DNA from: Kiloniellales bacterium
Lineage (GTDB): Bacteria > Pseudomonadota > Alphaproteobacteria > Kiloniellales > JAKSBE01
NCBI GenBank assembly: GCA_030066685.1
Contig: JASJBF010000054.1
Location: 1-64,000, forward strand
DNA length: 64,000 nucleotides
Direction: 5' to 3'
In this document: one piece after another, positions 5,735-15,499 of the stretch
Position numbering within the stretch: the first letter of the stretch is position 1
Layout of the letters: each line of letters opens with the position of its first letter
Notes under the pieces: generated by a model
Told to the model about the DNA's origin: nothing
The model's input: only the letters and a program-made list of their open reading frames with translations
Database searches by the model: none
Translations under genes and position numbers: made by a program

Positions 5735-6334
5735 ATGAAGAAATCACGGAACGCCGCCATCGTTGCCGCCTTTGCCTGCGGGCTTCTGGCCGCTCCGGCC
5801 CTGGCAGTGGACCCCCACCTCGTGCCGGCCCGCGATTTCGCCGCGGCCTCGGTGGCGAACTGGCTGAACGATCCGGTGATCCTGCGCAGCATCAAGGCGC
5901 ACAACGCCCGCCATGCCGAGCTGTCCCGTGGTGAAATCGAGGCGCTCGACATCCAGTGGCGCCTGGAGACCGCCGCCGCCGATCGGCCCCTGATCGACAG
6001 TGTCCTGCAGAGCCAGCTGTCGAAGTGCCTGATGTACCTCAGGAAGGCGGCCGGCGGCCGGGTGACCGAGATTCTGGTCATGGATGCCTACGGCATGATC
6101 GTGGGCGTGGACCATGCCAATTCCGACTACTGGCAGGGCGACGAGGACAAGTGGCGCAAGACCTATCTCGCCGGCCCCGGCGCGGTCTTCGTGGACGATG
6201 TCGAGCACGACCCCTCCACCGACGCCTTCCAGTCGGAGGTCAGCTTTGCGATCACCGACCCGGAAAGCGGCGAGGTGATCGGTTCGATCACCCTGGGCAT
6301 CGACGTCGACAGTCTGACGCAGAACGAAACTTGA
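5735..6334 (+). CDS. Secreted stand-alone PDC (Cache-like) sensor domain protein
   Basis: The 199-residue product has a signal peptide (basic start, hydrophobic core, AxA-type cleavage after about residue 24). The rest is a single extracytoplasmic PDC-like domain. It resembles the periplasmic ligand-binding part of histidine kinases and chemoreceptors, but there is no transmembrane anchor after the signal and no output domain. Blocks shared with its downstream paralogue include DIQWR, SDYWQGDEDKW, VFVD-VEHD-STD-FQS and GEVIGSIT. The start has GGAGG 6 nt upstream. A strong hairpin follows the gene. It probably acts in the periplasm as a ligand-binding protein; partner and ligand are not evident. 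Confidence 0.82.
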   Translation: MKKSRNAAIVAAFACGLLAAPALAVDPHLVPARDFAAASVANWLNDPVILRSIKAHNARHAELSRGEIEALDIQWRLETAAADRPLIDSVLQSQLSKCLMYLRKAAGGRVTEILVMDAYGMIVGVDHANSDYWQGDEDKWRKTYLAGPGAVFVDDVEHDPSTDAFQSEVSFAITDPESGEVIGSITLGIDVDSLTQNET

Positions 6335-6548: not shown

Positions 6549-6589
6549 TTCGTCACTTGGAGACTTCCGCGTTCACTGGGGGATTCCCG

Positions 6590-7189
6590 ATGACCCATCC
6601 AATCCGCGGCCTGGTGCTGGCAGGCTGCTTTCTCGGCTTCCTGGCCGGTGCGGCGCAGGCGGCCGAGCAACACGTCGAGCCGATGAAGAACTTCGCCAAG
6701 AACACGGTGCAGCAGTGGATCGGCGAGCCGGTCATGATCAGCGCGATCAAGGCGCAAAACGACCGCTACGCCGACCTCACCCAGTCGCAGATCGACAGCA
6801 TGGACATTCAGTGGCGCACAGAGACGGTGCTGAGCCGCAAGCCGCTGATCAAGCAGGTGTCCGGCAACCCGTTGTCGGCCCGCTTGAAGGAGCTGAAGGC
6901 CGCGACCAAGGGCGTGGTCACCGAGATCTTCGTCATGGACAACCGGGGCATGAACGTCGCGATCAGCGACGTCACCTCGGACTACTGGCAGGGTGACGAG
7001 GACAAGTGGCAGAAGACCTTCCTGGCCGGTGCTGGCACCGTCTTCGTCGACGCGGTCGAGCACGATGCCTCGACCGACAGCTTCCAGTCCCAGCTCAGCA
7101 TGTCGATCGCCGACCCGGCGACCGGAGAGGTGATCGGCGCGATCACCGTCGGCATCAACGTCGACCGCCTGAACGCCGTCGGGCTCTGA
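6590..7189 (+). CDS. Secreted stand-alone PDC sensor domain protein, paralogue
   Basis: Tandem paralogue of the preceding gene, roughly half identical over the mature region. The ATG at 6590 is chosen over an in-frame ATG at 6557 because it gives a clean signal peptide (about 23 residues, ending AQA before AEQHVEP) and has GGGG about 8 nt upstream. The mature part is a single PDC-like domain without membrane anchor or output domain. The most conserved segment is SDYWQGDEDKW followed by VFVDAVEHD. It has its own leader with a hairpin and a TTAA-N7-TTAA box, so it is probably transcribed separately. It converges with the HugZ-like gene. Confidence 0.82.
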   Translation: MTHPIRGLVLAGCFLGFLAGAAQAAEQHVEPMKNFAKNTVQQWIGEPVMISAIKAQNDRYADLTQSQIDSMDIQWRTETVLSRKPLIKQVSGNPLSARLKELKAATKGVVTEIFVMDNRGMNVAISDVTSDYWQGDEDKWQKTFLAGAGTVFVDAVEHDASTDSFQSQLSMSIADPATGEVIGAITVGINVDRLNAVGL

Positions 7190-8187: not shown

Positions 8188-8889
8188 ATGCAGCCAACCA
8201 TCGCCCTGGTCGACGACGACCGCAATATCCTAGCGTCGGTGTCCATCGCCCTGGAAGCGGAGGGCTTCAAGGTGCGGACCTACACCGATGGCTCGGAGGC
8301 CCTGCGGGCCTTTCAGGCGAGCCCTGTGGACCTGGCCATCCTCGACATCAAGATGCCCCGCATGGACGGCATGGAGCTGCTCGGCCATCTGAGGAAGTCC
8401 TCGACCCTGCCGGTGATCTTCCTGACCTCCAAGGACGACGAGGTGGACGAGGTCCTGGGTCTCAGGATGGGCGCCGACGACTACATCACCAAGCCCTTCT
8501 CCCAGCGCCTGCTGATCGAGCGGATCCGCGCCCTGCTGCGGCGCGAGAAGCTCTCGCAGGACGACGGGGCCGAGGTCACCGCGGAAAAGCCCCTGACCCG
8601 CGGCGACCTGATGCTGGACCCGGCGCGCCACCTTTGCACTTGGAAGGCGGAAGCGGTTAATCTCACCGTCACCGAGTTCCTGATTCTCAAGGCGTTGGCC
8701 CAGCGCCCTGGGCACGTCAAGAACCGCGATCAGCTGATGGACGCGGCCTACGGTGAGCACATCTACGTTGACGACCGGACGATCGACAGCCACATCAAAC
8801 GCCTGCGAAAGAAGTTCAAGGTCGTCGACGACGGGTTCTCGCAGATCGAGACGCTCTACGGCGTTGGCTACCGCTACAAGGACGCCTGA
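8188..8889 (+). CDS. chvI: OmpR-family response regulator ChvI
   Basis: Two-component response regulator. The receiver domain (residues 1-120) has the phospho-acceptor D53 in ILDIKMP, the acidic pocket VDDD near the start, and the conserved Lys in ITKPFS. A winged-helix DNA-binding domain occupies the C-terminal ~100 residues, with the [16 protein letters not shown] recognition segment. The product is 233 residues. It is followed 48 bp later by the partner kinase gene. In rhizobia and relatives, ChvI with ChvG controls envelope, acid-stress and carbon-metabolism genes; the neighbouring pckA and PTS genes fit this. AAAGGG precedes the ATG. Confidence 0.96.
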
Positions 8890-8937: not shown

Positions 8938-10626
8938 ATGACGGCCGAAAGCGAGATCAAGCCGCTGCTCGCGCCGCGGGCGGGGGTGGAAGACGTCAGC
9001 GACGTCGCCGAGCAATCTCAGGCGCGACGGGGTGGGCGTTTGCCGATTCTGGGCTCGCCCCTGACCCGCCGGATCCTCACCCTCAACGTCCTGGTCCTGC
9101 TGATCCCGGTCCTCGGCCTGCTGCATCTCGAGCAGTTCCGCGACAGCCTGATCGAAGCCGAACTCGAGGCCCTAAATGTGCAGGGCCGGGCCTTCTCGCT
9201 CTCCCTCGCCGGCGGCGCCGTCGTGGTCAGCCCGAGCGGCGAGGAATCGATCCTTCCCGAGGCGACCCGCAACATCATGCGCATCCTGCTGCCCGGCTCC
9301 GGGGTCCGGGCCCGGCTCTTCGACCGGGGCGGCAACCTGGTGGCGGACTCCTTCCGGCTCACGGGCAAGGGCGGCCAGGTGCACGTGGTCGAGCTGGCGC
9401 CCCTTGACGGCGGCACGGCGGTGTCGCGAACCCTGAGCCGGATGCTCGACCGGGCCATCGACTGGCTTCCCGGGGTCGATCACCTGCCGGTCTACTACGA
9501 GGCCCCGGTGCAGCGCGCGACCGACTACGACGAGGTCGCCATGGTCCTGCGAGTCGGCCGCGGCGGTGGCATGGCCCGGGTCGGCCGGCGCGGCGGCCTG
9601 GTGCTTTCGGCCGCGGTTCCAGTGCAGCGCTACCGGCAGGTGCTGGGCGCCCTGATGCTGTCCAAGGACGGCAGCGTCATCGAGTCGGCGGTGCGCAACC
9701 GGCGCCGGGACATCCTGCTGGTCTTCGCCATCGCGCTTGGGGTGACGATTCTGCTCTCGATCTATCTGGCCAGCACCATCGCCCGGCCGGTGCAGCGGCT
9801 CGCCGAGGCCGCCGATCGGGTCCGGCACGCCAAGGGCCGCCAGGTCGAGATCCCCGACATGTCGCATCGCCGCGACGAGGTCGGCGAGCTCTCCGCCGCC
9901 CTGATCGACATGACCGAGTCGCTCTGGACCCGCCTGGACGCGATCGAGCGCTTCGCCGCCGACGTGGCGCACGAGATCAAGAACCCGCTCACCTCGGTGC
10001 GCAGCGCGGTCGAAACCGTGGCCCGGGTCGACGACCCGGAGCAGCAAAAGAAGCTGATGAGCATCATCCTCGACGACGTGCAACGCCTGGACCGGCTGAT
10101 CAGCGACATCTCCGACGCCTCGCGGCTGGATGCCGAGCTGTCCCGGGCGCAGACCGAATCCGTCGACCTGAGTCAGCTCCTCGGCGCCCTGTCCGAGACC
10201 TACGACGCCGTGATCGAGCAGAAGGAGCTCAAGTTCGAGCTCAGCCTGCCGACCCGCGACGTCGTGGTCCAGGGGATCGAGGGCCGGCTGGGCCAGGTCT
10301 TCCGGAACCTGATCAGCAACGCCATTTCCTTCAGCCCGCCGGGCGGCGCGATCCGGCTGCTGGTGCGCCCGCAGGCCGGCGCCGTCGACATCCTGGTCGA
10401 GGACGACGGGCCGGGCATTCCGGAGACCAAGCTCGCCGCCATCTTCGACCGCTTCTACAGCGAGCGGCCGAGCGACGAAAAGTTCGGCACGCACTCGGGG
10501 CTCGGACTGTCGATCTCGAAGCAGATCGTCGAGGCCCTTGGCGGCCAGGTCACCGCCGAGAACCGGCGGGACTCGGACGGCGCGATCATCGGTGCCCGCT
10601 TTCGCGTGCGCCTGCCGCTCGATTGA
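8938..10626 (+). CDS. chvG: Sensor histidine kinase ChvG
   Basis: Membrane histidine kinase paired with ChvI. Residues ~1-40 are cytoplasmic. TM1 is at about 42-62 (ILTLNVLVLLIPVLGLL), followed by a periplasmic sensor domain to about 258 and TM2 at about 259-280. HAMP comes next, then the HisKA domain with phospho-acceptor His345 in FAADVAHEIKNPL. The HATPase domain shows the N-box (FRNLISNAISFSPPGG), DDGPGIP and GLGLSIS. All catalytic motifs are intact. The stop overlaps the start region of the HprK-RapZ frame, so the two-component genes and the regulatory PTS genes are probably co-transcribed. Confidence 0.96.
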   Translation: MTAESEIKPLLAPRAGVEDVSDVAEQSQARRGGRLPILGSPLTRRILTLNVLVLLIPVLGLLHLEQFRDSLIEAELEALNVQGRAFSLSLAGGAVVVSPSGEESILPEATRNIMRILLPGSGVRARLFDRGGNLVADSFRLTGKGGQVHVVELAPLDGGTAVSRTLSRMLDRAIDWLPGVDHLPVYYEAPVQRATDYDEVAMVLRVGRGGGMARVGRRGGLVLSAAVPVQRYRQVLGALMLSKDGSVIESAVRNRRRDILLVFAIALGVTILLSIYLASTIARPVQRLAEAADRVRHAKGRQVEIPDMSHRRDEVGELSAALIDMTESLWTRLDAIERFAADVAHEIKNPLTSVRSAVETVARVDDPEQQKKLMSIILDDVQRLDRLISDISDASRLDAELSRAQTESVDLSQLLGALSETYDAVIEQKELKFELSLPTRDVVVQGIEGRLGQVFRNLISNAISFSPPGGAIRLLVRPQAGAVDILVEDDGPGIPETKLAAIFDRFYSERPSDEKFGTHSGLGLSISKQIVEALGGQVTAENRRDSDGAIIGARFRVRLPLD

Positions 10627-10637
10627 CCCCAGCCTCC

Positions 10638-12128
10638 ATGGCAGAGGCCCTCGTCCACGCCACCTGCGTCGTGGTCAAGGGCGTCGGCCTTCTGCTGCGC
10701 GGCCCCTCGGGGTCCGGCAAGTCGGACCTGGCGCTGCGTCTGATCGACGCCGGCGCGGCCCTGGTCGCAGACGATCAGACCGCCTTGCGGACCCGCCGAG
10801 GCCGTCTCGTCGCGCGGTCGCCCGATACGCTGGCGGGCAAGCTGGAAGTCCGCGGCCTGGGGATCCTCGAGCTGGCCCACAGCGCGGAGGCGGAGGTCGG
10901 ACTGGTCGTCGACCTGCGACCGGGACAGGAACCGGAGCGACTGCCGGAGGCGGCCGAGGCGGAGATCCTTGGGGTCTGCCTGCCGCGGCTGCAGCTCGAT
11001 GCCTTCGGCCCTTCGGCCGCCGCCAAGCTGCGCCTTGCCGCTCGGAGCCTCGGGACGCTACAACAGCCCGGTCCAGGGACCTGGAGCGGGCTGGGGCCCG
11101 AGACCATGACGACCGCAAGCGTGACCACCAGCAACGACGCCGCCGCCCGCGGATCCGCCGATCCCGAAGCCGGGACCTTTGAGCGGCCGGAGGTCCCTGC
11201 GGATCGCCGCCTGGTCCTCGTCACGGGCCTTTCGGGGGCGGGCCGCTCCTCGGCCCTGAAGGCGCTCGAGGACCAGGGCTACGAGGCGATCGACAACCTG
11301 CCCCTGGGCTTTCTCGCCGCGGTGACTCGCGAAACCTCTGTGCCGCCGGCGGACCGAACCGAACCTGCAACCGAGCTCGGAGAGCGTCCGGTCGCGATCG
11401 GCATCGATACGCGGACGCGGCACTTCGCGGTGGAGACCTTCCTGGCCCAGCTGGAGACCATGGCCGAGCGGCCGGGCCCGGATCCCCTGCTTCTCTTCAT
11501 CGACTGCGACGACGACGTGCTGGTCCGCCGTTACGCCGAGACCCGGCGCCGCCATCCCCTGGCGCTGGACCGCCCGGTGGCGGACGGCATCCAGGCCGAG
11601 CGTCGCCTGGTGACTCCCTTGCGGGCGCGGGCCGATCTGGTCATCGACACCTCGGAGCTGACGCTGGGCGGACTGAGGACCCAACTCGCCGAGCGGCTGG
11701 GGCTGGGCGCGGGTGGCGGCATGCTGGTGTCGGTGCTGTCCTTCTCCTACCGTTTCGGCCTGCCGAGGCACGCCGATCTGGTCTTCGACGTCCGCTTCCT
11801 GGCCAATCCGCATTACGAACCCCTGCTGAGGCCACTTACCGGGCGCGACGAGCCGGTCGCGGCCTACGTACAGGAAGATCCCGGATTTTCCATTTTTTTC
11901 AATCATCTGACGGAGCTTCTCGAGCCGCTTCTGCCGCGCTATCGCAAGGAGGGCAAGAGCTATCTGACCTTGGCCGTGGGCTGCACCGGCGGCCGGCACC
12001 GCTCCGTTGCGGTCGCTGAGCGCCTGGCGGCCTGGCTCGCCGACAAGGTGCCGCAGGTCAAGCTCCACCACCGCGATGTCGGGCGCAGCCACGGCGCCGG
12101 GCCGAGACCGGAAGAGGAAAAACCATGA
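10638..12128 (+). CDS. HPr kinase/phosphorylase fused in frame to RapZ
   Basis: One uninterrupted frame of 496 codons from the ATG at 10638 (TTG at 10623 also possible). Residues ~1-145 are a short alphaproteobacterial HprK catalytic domain: H7, P-loop GPSGSGKS at 22-29, LVADD at 42-46 and LEVRGLGI near 70. Residues ~185-496 are RapZ: Walker A GLSGAGRS at 197-204 and the C-terminal GCTGGRHRSVAVAERL and HRDVGRSHG signatures. A ~40-residue low-complexity linker joins them. HprK would phosphorylate HPr on serine; RapZ family members bind sugar phosphates or small RNAs and control cell-wall sugar synthesis. An internal ATG at 11106 (Met157) could give a separate RapZ. The stop overlaps the EIIA start by 4 nt. 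Confidence 0.9.
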   Translation: MAEALVHATCVVVKGVGLLLRGPSGSGKSDLALRLIDAGAALVADDQTALRTRRGRLVARSPDTLAGKLEVRGLGILELAHSAEAEVGLVVDLRPGQEPERLPEAAEAEILGVCLPRLQLDAFGPSAAAKLRLAARSLGTLQQPGPGTWSGLGPETMTTASVTTSNDAAARGSADPEAGTFERPEVPADRRLVLVTGLSGAGRSSALKALEDQGYEAIDNLPLGFLAAVTRETSVPPADRTEPATELGERPVAIGIDTRTRHFAVETFLAQLETMAERPGPDPLLLFIDCDDDVLVRRYAETRRRHPLALDRPVADGIQAERRLVTPLRARADLVIDTSELTLGGLRTQLAERLGLGAGGGMLVSVLSFSYRFGLPRHADLVFDVRFLANPHYEPLLRPLTGRDEPVAAYVQEDPGFSIFFNHLTELLEPLLPRYRKEGKSYLTLAVGCTGGRHRSVAVAERLAAWLADKVPQVKLHHRDVGRSHGAGPRPEEEKP

Positions 12129-12547
12129 TCGGACTGGTTTTGGTTACCCATGGCGGCCTTGCCCGCGAGTTCCTGGCCGCCGTCGAGCATGTCGTCGGCC
12201 CGCAGGAGCAGGTGGCGCTGGTCTGCATCGGCCCCGAGGACGACATGGAGGAGCGCCGCCAGCAGATCATCGACGGCGTCGACCGGGTCAACGGGGGCGA
12301 CGGCGTGGTGGTGGTCACTGACATGTTCGGCGGTACGCCATCGAACCTGGCGATTTCGGTCTTGGATCAGGGCCACGTCGAGGTGATCGCCGGCATGAAC
12401 CTGCCGATGCTGATCAAGCTGGCCAGCCTGCGGAGCGAAAAGCCGATCGGGGTCGTGGTCGCCGAGGCCCGGGAAGCCGGTCGCAAATACATCAATGTCG
12501 CGTCCGAACTGCTGGCCGGGGAGGCCGCGGCGAAGGTCAAGAAATGA
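12125..12547 (+). CDS. PTS EIIA component, mannose family
   Basis: The 140-residue cytoplasmic EIIA-Man-type protein has phospho-acceptor His9 in the motif VTHGGLA and the family core DMFGGTPSN. It would receive phosphate from HPr. No EIIB or membrane EIIC gene is present in the window, which fits the regulatory, non-transporting PTS typical of alphaproteobacteria. The start ATG overlaps the RapZ stop (ATGA), and the stop overlaps the HPr start in the same way, indicating translational coupling. Confidence 0.95.
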   Translation: MIGLVLVTHGGLAREFLAAVEHVVGPQEQVALVCIGPEDDMEERRQQIIDGVDRVNGGDGVVVVTDMFGGTPSNLAISVLDQGHVEVIAGMNLPMLIKLASLRSEKPIGVVVAEAREAGRKYINVASELLAGEAAAKVKK

Positions 12548-12834
12548 ACCGGGATCAGGTCTTGGTCGCCAGGCGTCGCGTGACCATCGTCAATCAGCGC
12601 GGGCTGCATGCCAGGGCGGCGGCCAAGTTCGTCAAGCTGGCCGGCAGCTACGAGGCCGAGATCCTGGTCCGCAAGGACGGCACCGAAGTCTCCGGCCTCT
12701 CGATCATGGGGCTGATGATGCTGGCCGCAGGGCTGGGCGCGGAGATCGAGCTGCAGGCGAAAGGCCCGGCGCGGGAACCCGCGCTGGCCGCGCTGGCGGG
12801 CCTGGTCGCCGCCGGCTTTCACGAGGAGGCCTGA
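12544..12834 (+). CDS. ptsH: Phosphocarrier protein HPr
   Basis: The 96-residue HPr has phospho-acceptor His22 in RGLHARAA. The HprK target serine, Ser53, lies in GLSIMGLMML, matching the context of Ser46 in Gram-positive HPr. Presence of this serine with an HprK domain encoded just upstream supports a functional HPr(Ser-P) branch. The start overlaps the EIIA stop by 4 nt. About 170 bp without a convincing gene separates it from ptsI. Confidence 0.96.
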   Translation: MNRDQVLVARRRVTIVNQRGLHARAAAKFVKLAGSYEAEILVRKDGTEVSGLSIMGLMMLAAGLGAEIELQAKGPAREPALAALAGLVAAGFHEEA

Positions 12835-13003: not shown

Positions 13004-14800
13004 ATGGCGGCAAAGCGGGAAAAGAAGGGCAAGGGGGGCCGAAAGCGGCCCGGCGGCGAGCGCGTGCTGCAGGGCCTGGCGGTCTCCCCCGGCGTTGCGG
13101 TCGGCCAGACCTTTTTGCGCGAAGCCGGCGAGATCCAGATCAACGAGTACACGGTATCGCGGCGCCAGGTTCCGGTCGAGGCGGAGCGCTTCGAGAAGGC
13201 GGTGGCCAGGGCGCATGGCCAGCTGGACAAGATCCGGGCCCACGCCGACAACTTGCACGGCACGGCGGCCGAGGAACTGGGCTACCTGCTGGATGCCCAC
13301 GAGCAGATGTTGTCCTCGGCGCGCCTGACCAAGGGCGTCGTCCGCCGCATCGAGCAGGGGCGGATCAACGCCGAGGCGGCGGTCATGGCCGAGATCACCG
13401 AGATCGCCGCCAACTTCGAGGGCATGAACGACCCCTACCTGGCGGCCCGGGCCGACGAGATCCGGGAGGTCGGCCTGCGTCTGCTGCGCAGCCTCTCGGA
13501 CCGTCCCTACCAGGGCTTCAAGGAGGTCCCGGCCGGCTCCGTCATCCTGGCCGAGGAGATCACCCCGGCGGACACGGCGCTCATGGACCCCCGGCGGGTC
13601 GGGGGCTTCGCCTGCGTGCTCGGCGGTGCCGAGAGCCACACCGCGATCATGGCCCGCTCCCTGGGCCTGCCGGCGGTGCTCGGGGTCGGCGGGCTGCTGG
13701 AGGACGTGGTTCCGGGCGAGACGGTGATCGTCGACGGCTCCGACGGCCTGGTCATCCTGCGGCCGACCGCCAAGCGCCTGGCCGACTACAAGCGCCGCCA
13801 GCAGGCCATGGAGCGCGAGGCACGGGCCCTGGTGCGCCTGAGGACGCGGCCTGCGGTCACCCGGGACGGGGTGACGGTGGCGCTGCAGGCCAACCTGGAG
13901 CTGCCGCGGGAGGTCTCCCAGGCGCGCTCGGCGGGGGCCGAGGGCATCGGCCTTCTGCGCACCGAGTTCCTCTACATGAACCGGGACACTTTGCCCGACG
14001 AGGAGGAGCAGACCGCGGCGCTGCGCGAGATCGTCCGCGCCATGGGCGGCCGCCCGGTCACGGTGCGTACGCTCGACGTCGGCGGGGACAAGCTGGCCCC
14101 CTCCCTGCGGCCGCGCTTTTACGGTACCGCCAACCCGGCGCTCGGCCTGCGGGCGATCCGGCTGTCGCTGAAGGAGCCGGAACTGCTGGATACCCAGCTG
14201 GCGGCGATGCTCCGCGCCGGGGCCGAAGGGCCGATCCGGATCCTCCTGCCGATGATATCGACGGTCGCCGAGGTCGTGGAGGTCCGGAAGGCGCTCGCCG
14301 CCACCGCCCGGCGCCTCGAGCGAAAGGGAGAAAAGATCGCCGATCCGCGACCGCCGGTCGGGGTGATGATCGAGATCCCCGGCGCGGCGCTGGCCGCCGA
14401 CGCCATCGCCTCGGTGGCGGATTTCTTCGCCATCGGCAGCAACGACCTGACGATGTACACGCTGGCGATCGACCGCGGCGAGGAATCCGTCGCGCACCTC
14501 TACAACCCGCTGCATCCGGCGGTGCTGCGGCTGATCCAGTTCTCCGTCGAAGCGGCGCTGCGGGCCCGCCTGCCGGTCAGCGTCTGCGGCGAGATTGCCG
14601 GCGACCCGCGCTTCACTCCGCTGCTGCTCGGTCTCGGCGTACGCGATCTTTCGATGTCGGCCAACTCCCTGCTCCGGGTCAAGCAGCAGATCCGTGGCCT
14701 CGACATGCAGGCCGCCGCCCGCCGCGCCCAGGTCATCATGGATCAGACCGACAGCGCCCGGATCGCGGCGCTGCTGGATGACTTCAGCGAATCCCTGTGA
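13004..14800 (+). CDS. ptsI: Phosphoenolpyruvate-protein phosphotransferase (enzyme I)
   Basis: Transfers phosphate from phosphoenolpyruvate to HPr. The 598-residue product has a basic N-terminal extension of ~20 residues (Lys/Arg/Gly-rich), an EI N-terminal domain, and the phospho-His domain with His212 in GGAESHTAIMAR. The PEP-binding TIM barrel carries TEFLYM, RTLDVGGDK, GSNDLTMYTLAIDR and CGEIAGD. It lacks any GAF domain, so it is ordinary EI and not the PtsP (EI-Ntr) type. It is the last gene of the run. A strong inverted repeat 44 bp downstream lies between it and the pilin gene. Confidence 0.97.
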   Translation: MAAKREKKGKGGRKRPGGERVLQGLAVSPGVAVGQTFLREAGEIQINEYTVSRRQVPVEAERFEKAVARAHGQLDKIRAHADNLHGTAAEELGYLLDAHEQMLSSARLTKGVVRRIEQGRINAEAAVMAEITEIAANFEGMNDPYLAARADEIREVGLRLLRSLSDRPYQGFKEVPAGSVILAEEITPADTALMDPRRVGGFACVLGGAESHTAIMARSLGLPAVLGVGGLLEDVVPGETVIVDGSDGLVILRPTAKRLADYKRRQQAMEREARALVRLRTRPAVTRDGVTVALQANLELPREVSQARSAGAEGIGLLRTEFLYMNRDTLPDEEEQTAALREIVRAMGGRPVTVRTLDVGGDKLAPSLRPRFYGTANPALGLRAIRLSLKEPELLDTQLAAMLRAGAEGPIRILLPMISTVAEVVEVRKALAATARRLERKGEKIADPRPPVGVMIEIPGAALAADAIASVADFFAIGSNDLTMYTLAIDRGEESVAHLYNPLHPAVLRLIQFSVEAALRARLPVSVCGEIAGDPRFTPLLLGLGVRDLSMSANSLLRVKQQIRGLDMQAAARRAQVIMDQTDSARIAALLDDFSESL

Positions 14801-15025: not shown

Positions 15026-15199
15026 TTAAGAGGCCGCGTCCAGCTTCGAAGCCACACCGTCGAACAGCGTGTCCAGCGAGCTGCCGACGGAGGTCAGGGC
15101 GCCGATGGCGGCGACTGCGATCAGAGCGGCGATCAGGCCGTATTCGATGGCCGTCGCGCCGGACTCGTCCTTCGCGAAGGAATGCAGGGACTTGAACAT
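15026..15199 (-). CDS. Flp/Fap-type type IVb pilin
   Basis: The 57-residue pilin precursor has a short basic leader, then a hydrophobic segment beginning around ATAIEYGLIAALIAVAAIGAL. The conserved Gly-Ala/Glu-Tyr region (SGATAIEYG) is the processing and assembly motif of Flp pilins. GGAGG lies about 9 nt before the ATG. Upstream in-frame codons to 15316 lack coding character. No tad/cpa secretion genes are in the window, so assembly proteins must be encoded elsewhere. A terminator-like hairpin lies downstream. Confidence 0.93.
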   Translation of the reverse strand: MFKSLHSFAKDESGATAIEYGLIAALIAVAAIGALTSVGSSLDTLFDGVASKLDAAS

Positions 15200-15499
15200 A
15201 GGGGTATCCTCCAATGAACAAACAAGCGCGATCGCGCGATTTGGTGTAGTTTGTCTACACCCGGATCTTGGACTTGAAATATTAATATTAGGTAACGCCC
15301 ACCACAGAAATGCCACATCAAAATAATGAAAATATATAGCGCGTTTTATGTTTCATATTTACTGCGAAATTAACCTTAGAACGCCAAGTAATTCCCTGTG
15401 CGGCGCCGCGGCGCCCGGCGCTTGTCGCTGTCGCCGCTGGCTGTTAAACCCTCCGCGATTCGGCCGCTATCGGCGACCCTGAACACGGAGAACGGAAAA
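15200..15499. promoter_or_regulatory. Divergent pilin/ahcY intergenic region
   Basis: No gene is seen. The stretch at 15270-15380 is AT-rich and probably holds both promoters. It contains a perfect 7-bp inverted repeat (GGTGTAG 15243-15249, CTACACC 15255-15261) in the pilin leader and a palindromic GCGCGATCGCGC at 15226-15237. TTAC-N7-TTAAC at 15359-15374 is one base away from the CtrA consensus. I looked for a recognisable SAH-type riboswitch before ahcY and saw none. Confidence 0.45.

Follow-up and report, generated by a model that had tools for sequence, protein, structure and literature searches.

A fused hprK-rapZ gene was identified on contig JASJBF010000054.1 of a Kiloniellales bacterium (GenBank assembly GCA_030066685.1), within the stretch of 64,000 nucleotides (nt; positions 1 to 64,000 of the forward strand) that was analysed here and is henceforth called the window. 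The gene (10638..12128, + strand) is a genuine fusion, in which an HprK kinase domain, a linker predicted to be disordered, and a complete RapZ are encoded in one chain, and the fusion is the majority state of the sampled order instead of being peculiar to the source genome. Reading-frame analysis of the window returned a single open frame of 496 codons without internal stop (496 amino acids, aa); an alternative TTG start at 10623, which overlaps the stop codon of the upstream chvG gene, would yield 501 aa. The first-pass annotation of the window had described an unbroken HprK-RapZ frame of 496 aa with an in-frame ATG at 11106, and the frame, the quoted motifs, and the ATG (codon 157) were all recovered. 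Besides 10638-12128, no second HprK or RapZ was detected in the genome, and a stand-alone second copy was consequently rejected. The open frame is shared by both congeners, whose linkers align over 51 codons without gap or stop. That a stop codon is concealed by an error of sequencing or assembly, for which it could be argued that many of the relatives are draft assemblies, was given practically no credence and is refuted by the same frame in three congeners and in 42 genomes, one of them consisting of a single contig.

Domain composition and predicted structure

The HprK kinase domain comprises residues 1-141 (10638..11060, +) and contains the Walker A motif GPSGSGKS (residues 22-29), VADD, and the signature EVRGLGI (residues 70-76), i.e., the Walker A, VADD, and ERGxGI signature of the short alphaproteobacterial HprK. 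It was assigned by Pfam (Hpr_kinase_C, residues 4-93, E-value 3.1e-20, above cut-off) and by alignment to solved HprK structures (1ko7, 1jb1, 2qmh). The Pfam match ends at profile position 104 of 171, the matches to solved structures stop at residue 79-81, and the C-terminal region for dephosphorylation of full-type HPr kinase/phosphorylases was not found in the HprK half. The model TIGR00679 (HPr kinase equivalog) was matched partially with 80.5 bits against a cut-off of 240; as the separate alphaproteobacterial HprK proteins tested (4/4) also stay below this cut-off (57-87 bits), the low score reflects the short HprK form and not the fusion. The linker (residues 143-185; 11064..11192, +) is predicted to be disordered and includes the in-frame ATG at codon 157 (11106..11108, +), which is kept in both congeners and could be a remnant of a separate rapZ start. 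It is followed by the RapZ N-terminal P-loop domain (residues 192-354; 11211..11699, +; Pfam PF03668, RapZ-like_N, E-value 2.6e-40) and the RapZ C-terminal domain with the motif GCTGGRHRS (residues 363-481; 11724..12080, +; Pfam PF22740, E-value 3.2e-45), both above cut-off. The RapZ half also exceeded the cut-off of NCBIfam NF003828 (319 versus 244 bits), with the whole profile (1-278) covered.

The structure model consisted of a confident HprK part and a confident RapZ (mean predicted local distance difference test score (pLDDT) 84.7, predicted template modelling score (pTM) 0.63), and linker residues 143-185 had a pLDDT below 50. The HprK half matched 1kkl_B (E-value 1.5e-13) and 1jb1, and Foldseek returned a template modelling score (TM-score) of about 0.7 by target against the HprK/P of L. 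casei. Whole-chain TM-scores to E. coli RapZ were low (root-mean-square deviation about 13 Å) owing to a different arrangement of the domains; taken by itself, the C-terminal domain resembled 5o5s with a TM-score of 0.91 by target length.

Distribution of the fusion in the order and class

For the order Kiloniellales, 60 genomes were sampled and the locus was classified on the DNA; 59 were classifiable, and one (G040) with a broken contig was left out. Fusion calls were made from the locus DNA, and the reported frame length was not accepted as proof (e.g., locus L027 was reported with 538 aa, yet has stops between the genes). The genes were fused in 42 of the 59 genomes and separate in 17. By genus, 22 of 27 were fused, five were separate, and none was mixed, with fused members in all eight families. 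At four of the 42 fused loci (L024, L025, L138, L192), part of a domain is missing at a contig end, with the junction being covered. The core-to-core gap of fused loci ranged from 42 to 198 nt, and in the tree set the core-to-core spacing was a multiple of three in the 42 fused rows for which a gap value was available versus 18 of 71 separate rows. At four loci (L012, L014, and L015 from one genus, and L017), hprK and rapZ lie in the same frame with a single in-frame stop between them; these loci may represent a fusion being split or one about to form.

Outside the order, 51 class genomes representing 38 families were taken out of 177 matching ones, a selection that favoured long reported frames and high-ranking matches. 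Both genes were found in 47 of the 51 genomes, where they are adjacent and in no case fused (0/47); HprK beside RapZ was not detected in the other four. Among the best 80 named GTDB loci, ranked by likeness to the fusion, 68 were separate, five had no HprK nearby, and seven were fused, six of which matched order genomes already counted. The seventh fusion was that of an unplaced alphaproteobacterial metagenome-assembled genome of uncertain position (L040). The first-pass annotation had stated that the two genes are normally separate in alphaproteobacteria, which holds for the class outside the order but not for the order itself. It had also named two genes at the same locus in close relatives as evidence that would speak against a fusion; this arrangement was found in the 17 order genomes (five genera) and is contradicted by the other 42.

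The internal start codon

The ATG at 11106 had been suggested to give a free RapZ in addition to the fusion, i.e., two products from one gene. This is considered unlikely, and internal initiation found no support in the sequence: the Shine-Dalgarno duplex energy at 11106 is -5.1 kcal/mol, which is matched by 28% of the codon positions of the gene and is thus not above background, and the matching ATG of the congeners reaches only -2.5. Ahead of the ATG, third positions diverge little, yet not exceptionally so (rank 45 of 467 windows), and 21 of the 42 fused linkers lack an ATG altogether. ATG, GTG, and TTG are all absent from eight of the 42 linkers; six of these eight have a GTG, TTG, or ATG inside the sequence for the first RapZ strand or the P-loop, and at two loci, L133 and L112 (the latter from a single-contig genome), all three codons are missing from the end of the HprK core to the RapZ P-loop. 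Two products would be in line with the ATG, which both congeners have at this very codon, with the residues following it (MTT...), which by eye resemble the N-termini of separate RapZ, and with the linker ATG of some other fused genes, where the Shine-Dalgarno energy is better (-7.5 in L019, -6.6 in L022). Shine-Dalgarno sites of separate rapZ genes are weak too (median -4.1, n = 118), and the hprK start itself has no Shine-Dalgarno match (energy 0.3 to 0.6), so that a missing site does not forbid initiation at 11106.

Evolutionary history

Trees were calculated with quick searches and have weak deep support. The fewest state changes were four within the order (two trees) and five or six overall, depending on the tree. 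Neither a single clade of all fused genera (p value of the approximately unbiased test (p-AU) 0.31) nor the placement of L040 with the order (p-AU 0.77) was rejected, and judging from these trees, a single origin with later splits and several origins would both be compatible with the data. In three congener pairs, nonsynonymous divergence (dN) across the whole linker was 0.22-0.26 and thereby lower than synonymous divergence (dS, 0.39-0.57); the dN/dS ratio between congeners was roughly 0.5-0.6 across the linker versus about 0.13-0.16 in RapZ.

The fusion could be neutral, i.e., a stop codon was lost between translationally coupled neighbours in operons of high guanine-plus-cytosine (GC) content, and the fusion has lasted owing to its harmlessness, with halves that work independently. 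This explanation is possible, although we regard it as doubtful. It would agree with a linker that evolves fast and varies in length, with the two-gene state of the five separate genera, and with the GC content, which is higher in fused loci (median 0.676) than in the separate loci of the order (median 0.579). However, class genomes of similar GC content (median 0.668) include no fusion among 47, and the uniform state per genus across eight families suggests long persistence, which is still compatible with neutrality.

Gene neighbourhood

Upstream of the fusion, genes for a response regulator (8188..8889, +; Pfam Response_reg, Trans_reg_C) and a sensor kinase (8938..10626, +; Pfam Sensor_TM1, Stimulus_sens_1, HAMP, HisKA, HATPase_c) were found, which we take to be of the ChvI and ChvG type based on their domain content and gene order. 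Downstream, genes follow for an enzyme IIA of the mannose family (EIIA; 12125..12547, +; Pfam EIIA-man), the ATG of which overlaps the stop codon of the fusion, for HPr/NPr (12544..12834, +; Pfam PTS-HPr), and for enzyme I (13004..14800, +; Pfam PEP-utilisers_N, PEP-utilizers, PEP-utilizers_C). The neighbours named in the first-pass annotation (ChvG, EIIA/HPr/EI) were thus confirmed. In HPr, His22 and Ser53 (SGLSIMGLMML) are presumably the phosphorylation sites, as assigned from the motif. No EIIC domain was detected in the genome by a domain search that gave matches in 7 of 14 control genomes. A second HPr-domain match in the genome lies at 13195-13434 of another contig. The ChvI/ChvG-type pair is preceded by a tandem of two paralogues, each about 200 aa long (5735-6334 and 6557-7189, +), which share 52% identity over 186 aa, have N-termini that resemble signal sequences, and matched nothing in Pfam at 1e-5. 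A small open reading frame just 3' of the enzyme I gene (15026-15316, -) contains ATAIEYGLIAALIAV and presumably resembles a Flp/Fap-type pilin.

Motif conservation and proposed function

HprK catalytic motifs and the RapZ pocket motif were surveyed in 43 fused rows of the tree set (42 from the order plus L040). The Walker A lysine and both VADD aspartates of HprK were intact wherever filled (41 filled, 2 gaps), as were the cysteine and histidine of the RapZ motif GCTGGxHRS (41 filled, 2 gaps); the HprK histidine was absent in one of the 43 rows. Of the traits expected of a RapZ, namely binding of glucosamine-6-phosphate and small RNA and joint action with RNase E, the first would fit the conserved pocket motif GCTGGRHRS. 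The canonical lysine of the RapZ Walker A motif (residue 203, 11244-11246 of the window) is replaced by arginine in this protein. Regardless of fusion, the 59 order rows have arginine (51) or histidine (eight) at this position; outside the order, lysine was found in 20 of the 54 separate rows. The lysine-to-arginine change does not track the fusion state.

Functional coupling of HprK and RapZ by the fusion is plausible, and recurrence across families makes the fusion better evidence of a functional link, though less odd for this particular genome. The fusion probably acts as a flexible tether that brings an amino-sugar sensor together with an HPr-serine kinase within a single oligomer; everything beyond the one polypeptide is what we infer. 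A ribosome starting at hprK would continue into RapZ, resulting in 1:1 production and tethered activities. The RapZ part, probably an oligomer like E. coli RapZ, would carry several flexibly attached HprK domains, and glucosamine-6-phosphate or a metabolite like it would be sensed by the pocket of its C-terminal domain. The state of RapZ might then bias the phosphorylation of HPr at Ser53 by HprK and slow the flow of phosphate to EIIA proteins, and where hprK and rapZ are separate neighbours in the rest of the class, their products would play this role as partners instead of as one chain. The presence of HPr with Ser53 and of EIIA in the same gene row, together with no EIIC in the genome, was counted in favour of this proposal. 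Related systems provide further context: the truncated HprK found in Brucella phosphorylates Ser61 of NPr, is inhibited by inorganic phosphate, is stimulated by fructose-1,6-bisphosphate when inorganic phosphate is present, and dephosphorylates poorly (PMC2937029), while E. coli RapZ is tetrameric, binds glucosamine-6-phosphate with its C-terminal domain, and stimulates the QseE/QseF two-component pair when this metabolite is low (PMC5737377, PMC9841335).

More tentatively, and less likely to our mind than a plain tether, the fusion might be a single allosteric hub, in which the level of amino-sugar precursors read by RapZ would set how actively the tethered HprK phosphorylates HPr on serine, perhaps with ChvG/ChvI as output, similar to E. 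coli RapZ with QseE/QseF; adjacent but separate alphaproteobacterial pairs would in that case form this complex from two chains.

Several observations weigh against a functional tether. The two-gene state in 17 of 59 order genomes means that the covalent link is not essential, and at a pTM of 0.63, no predicted contact of the HprK half with the RapZ half can be trusted. The linker past codon 157 is fast-evolving (dN about 0.3), so that only the tether and not its sequence can matter. Alanine replaces the glutamate of the HprK signature in two fused rows, the GCTGG motif is degraded in one (L010), and with arginine or histidine in place of the Walker A lysine, it is uncertain whether RapZ uses nucleotides.

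When two proteins are fused in nature, this strongly suggests a joint action. The present fusion hints at a working link between phosphate-based sugar signalling and the control of cell-wall precursors and offers a handle on the role of RapZ in alphaproteobacteria. With a one-chain clade and two-gene sister genera, the HprK-RapZ link becomes directly testable.

Comparison with known systems

No report of an HprK-RapZ fusion, or of a test of an HprK-RapZ link, was found in an open-access library of papers, with subscription journals, preprints, and InterPro lying outside the search, and an earlier notice in databases is quite possible. In a survey of 222 genomes (2004 data), HPrK is described as a single polypeptide except for the tandem HPrK of Fusobacterium nucleatum, and no HprK-RapZ protein appears in the accessible part of its text (PMC2405797). 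Another study places hprK in the alphaproteobacterial cluster and, in the portion of its text available, mentions RapZ only for the rpoN operon of gamma/delta lineages (PMC13104625).

The short HprK of Brucella, Sinorhizobium, and Agrobacterium has the same neighbourhood as the fusion, i.e., a two-component system, EIIA-Man, and HPr (PMC2937029). The gene after hprK in B. abortus is BAB1_2095, listed as a "predicted protein with unknown function", with ptsM coming next (PMC9491525), whereas here HprK runs into RapZ. Both domains of E. coli RapZ (5o5o, 8b0i) were matched over their full length (E-value 1.4e-58 to 5o5o); in contrast to E. coli RapZ, the protein described here has a kinase domain in front, arginine for the Walker A lysine, and the neighbours of a phosphotransferase system (PTS)-HprK cluster. 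Multidomain fusions of the PTS, such as multiphosphoryl transfer proteins and the Fusobacterium tandem HPrK, likewise combine PTS regulators in one chain. Compared with these, the HprK-RapZ protein is an arrangement of known parts that is new, namely a clade-wide fusion of two known regulators.
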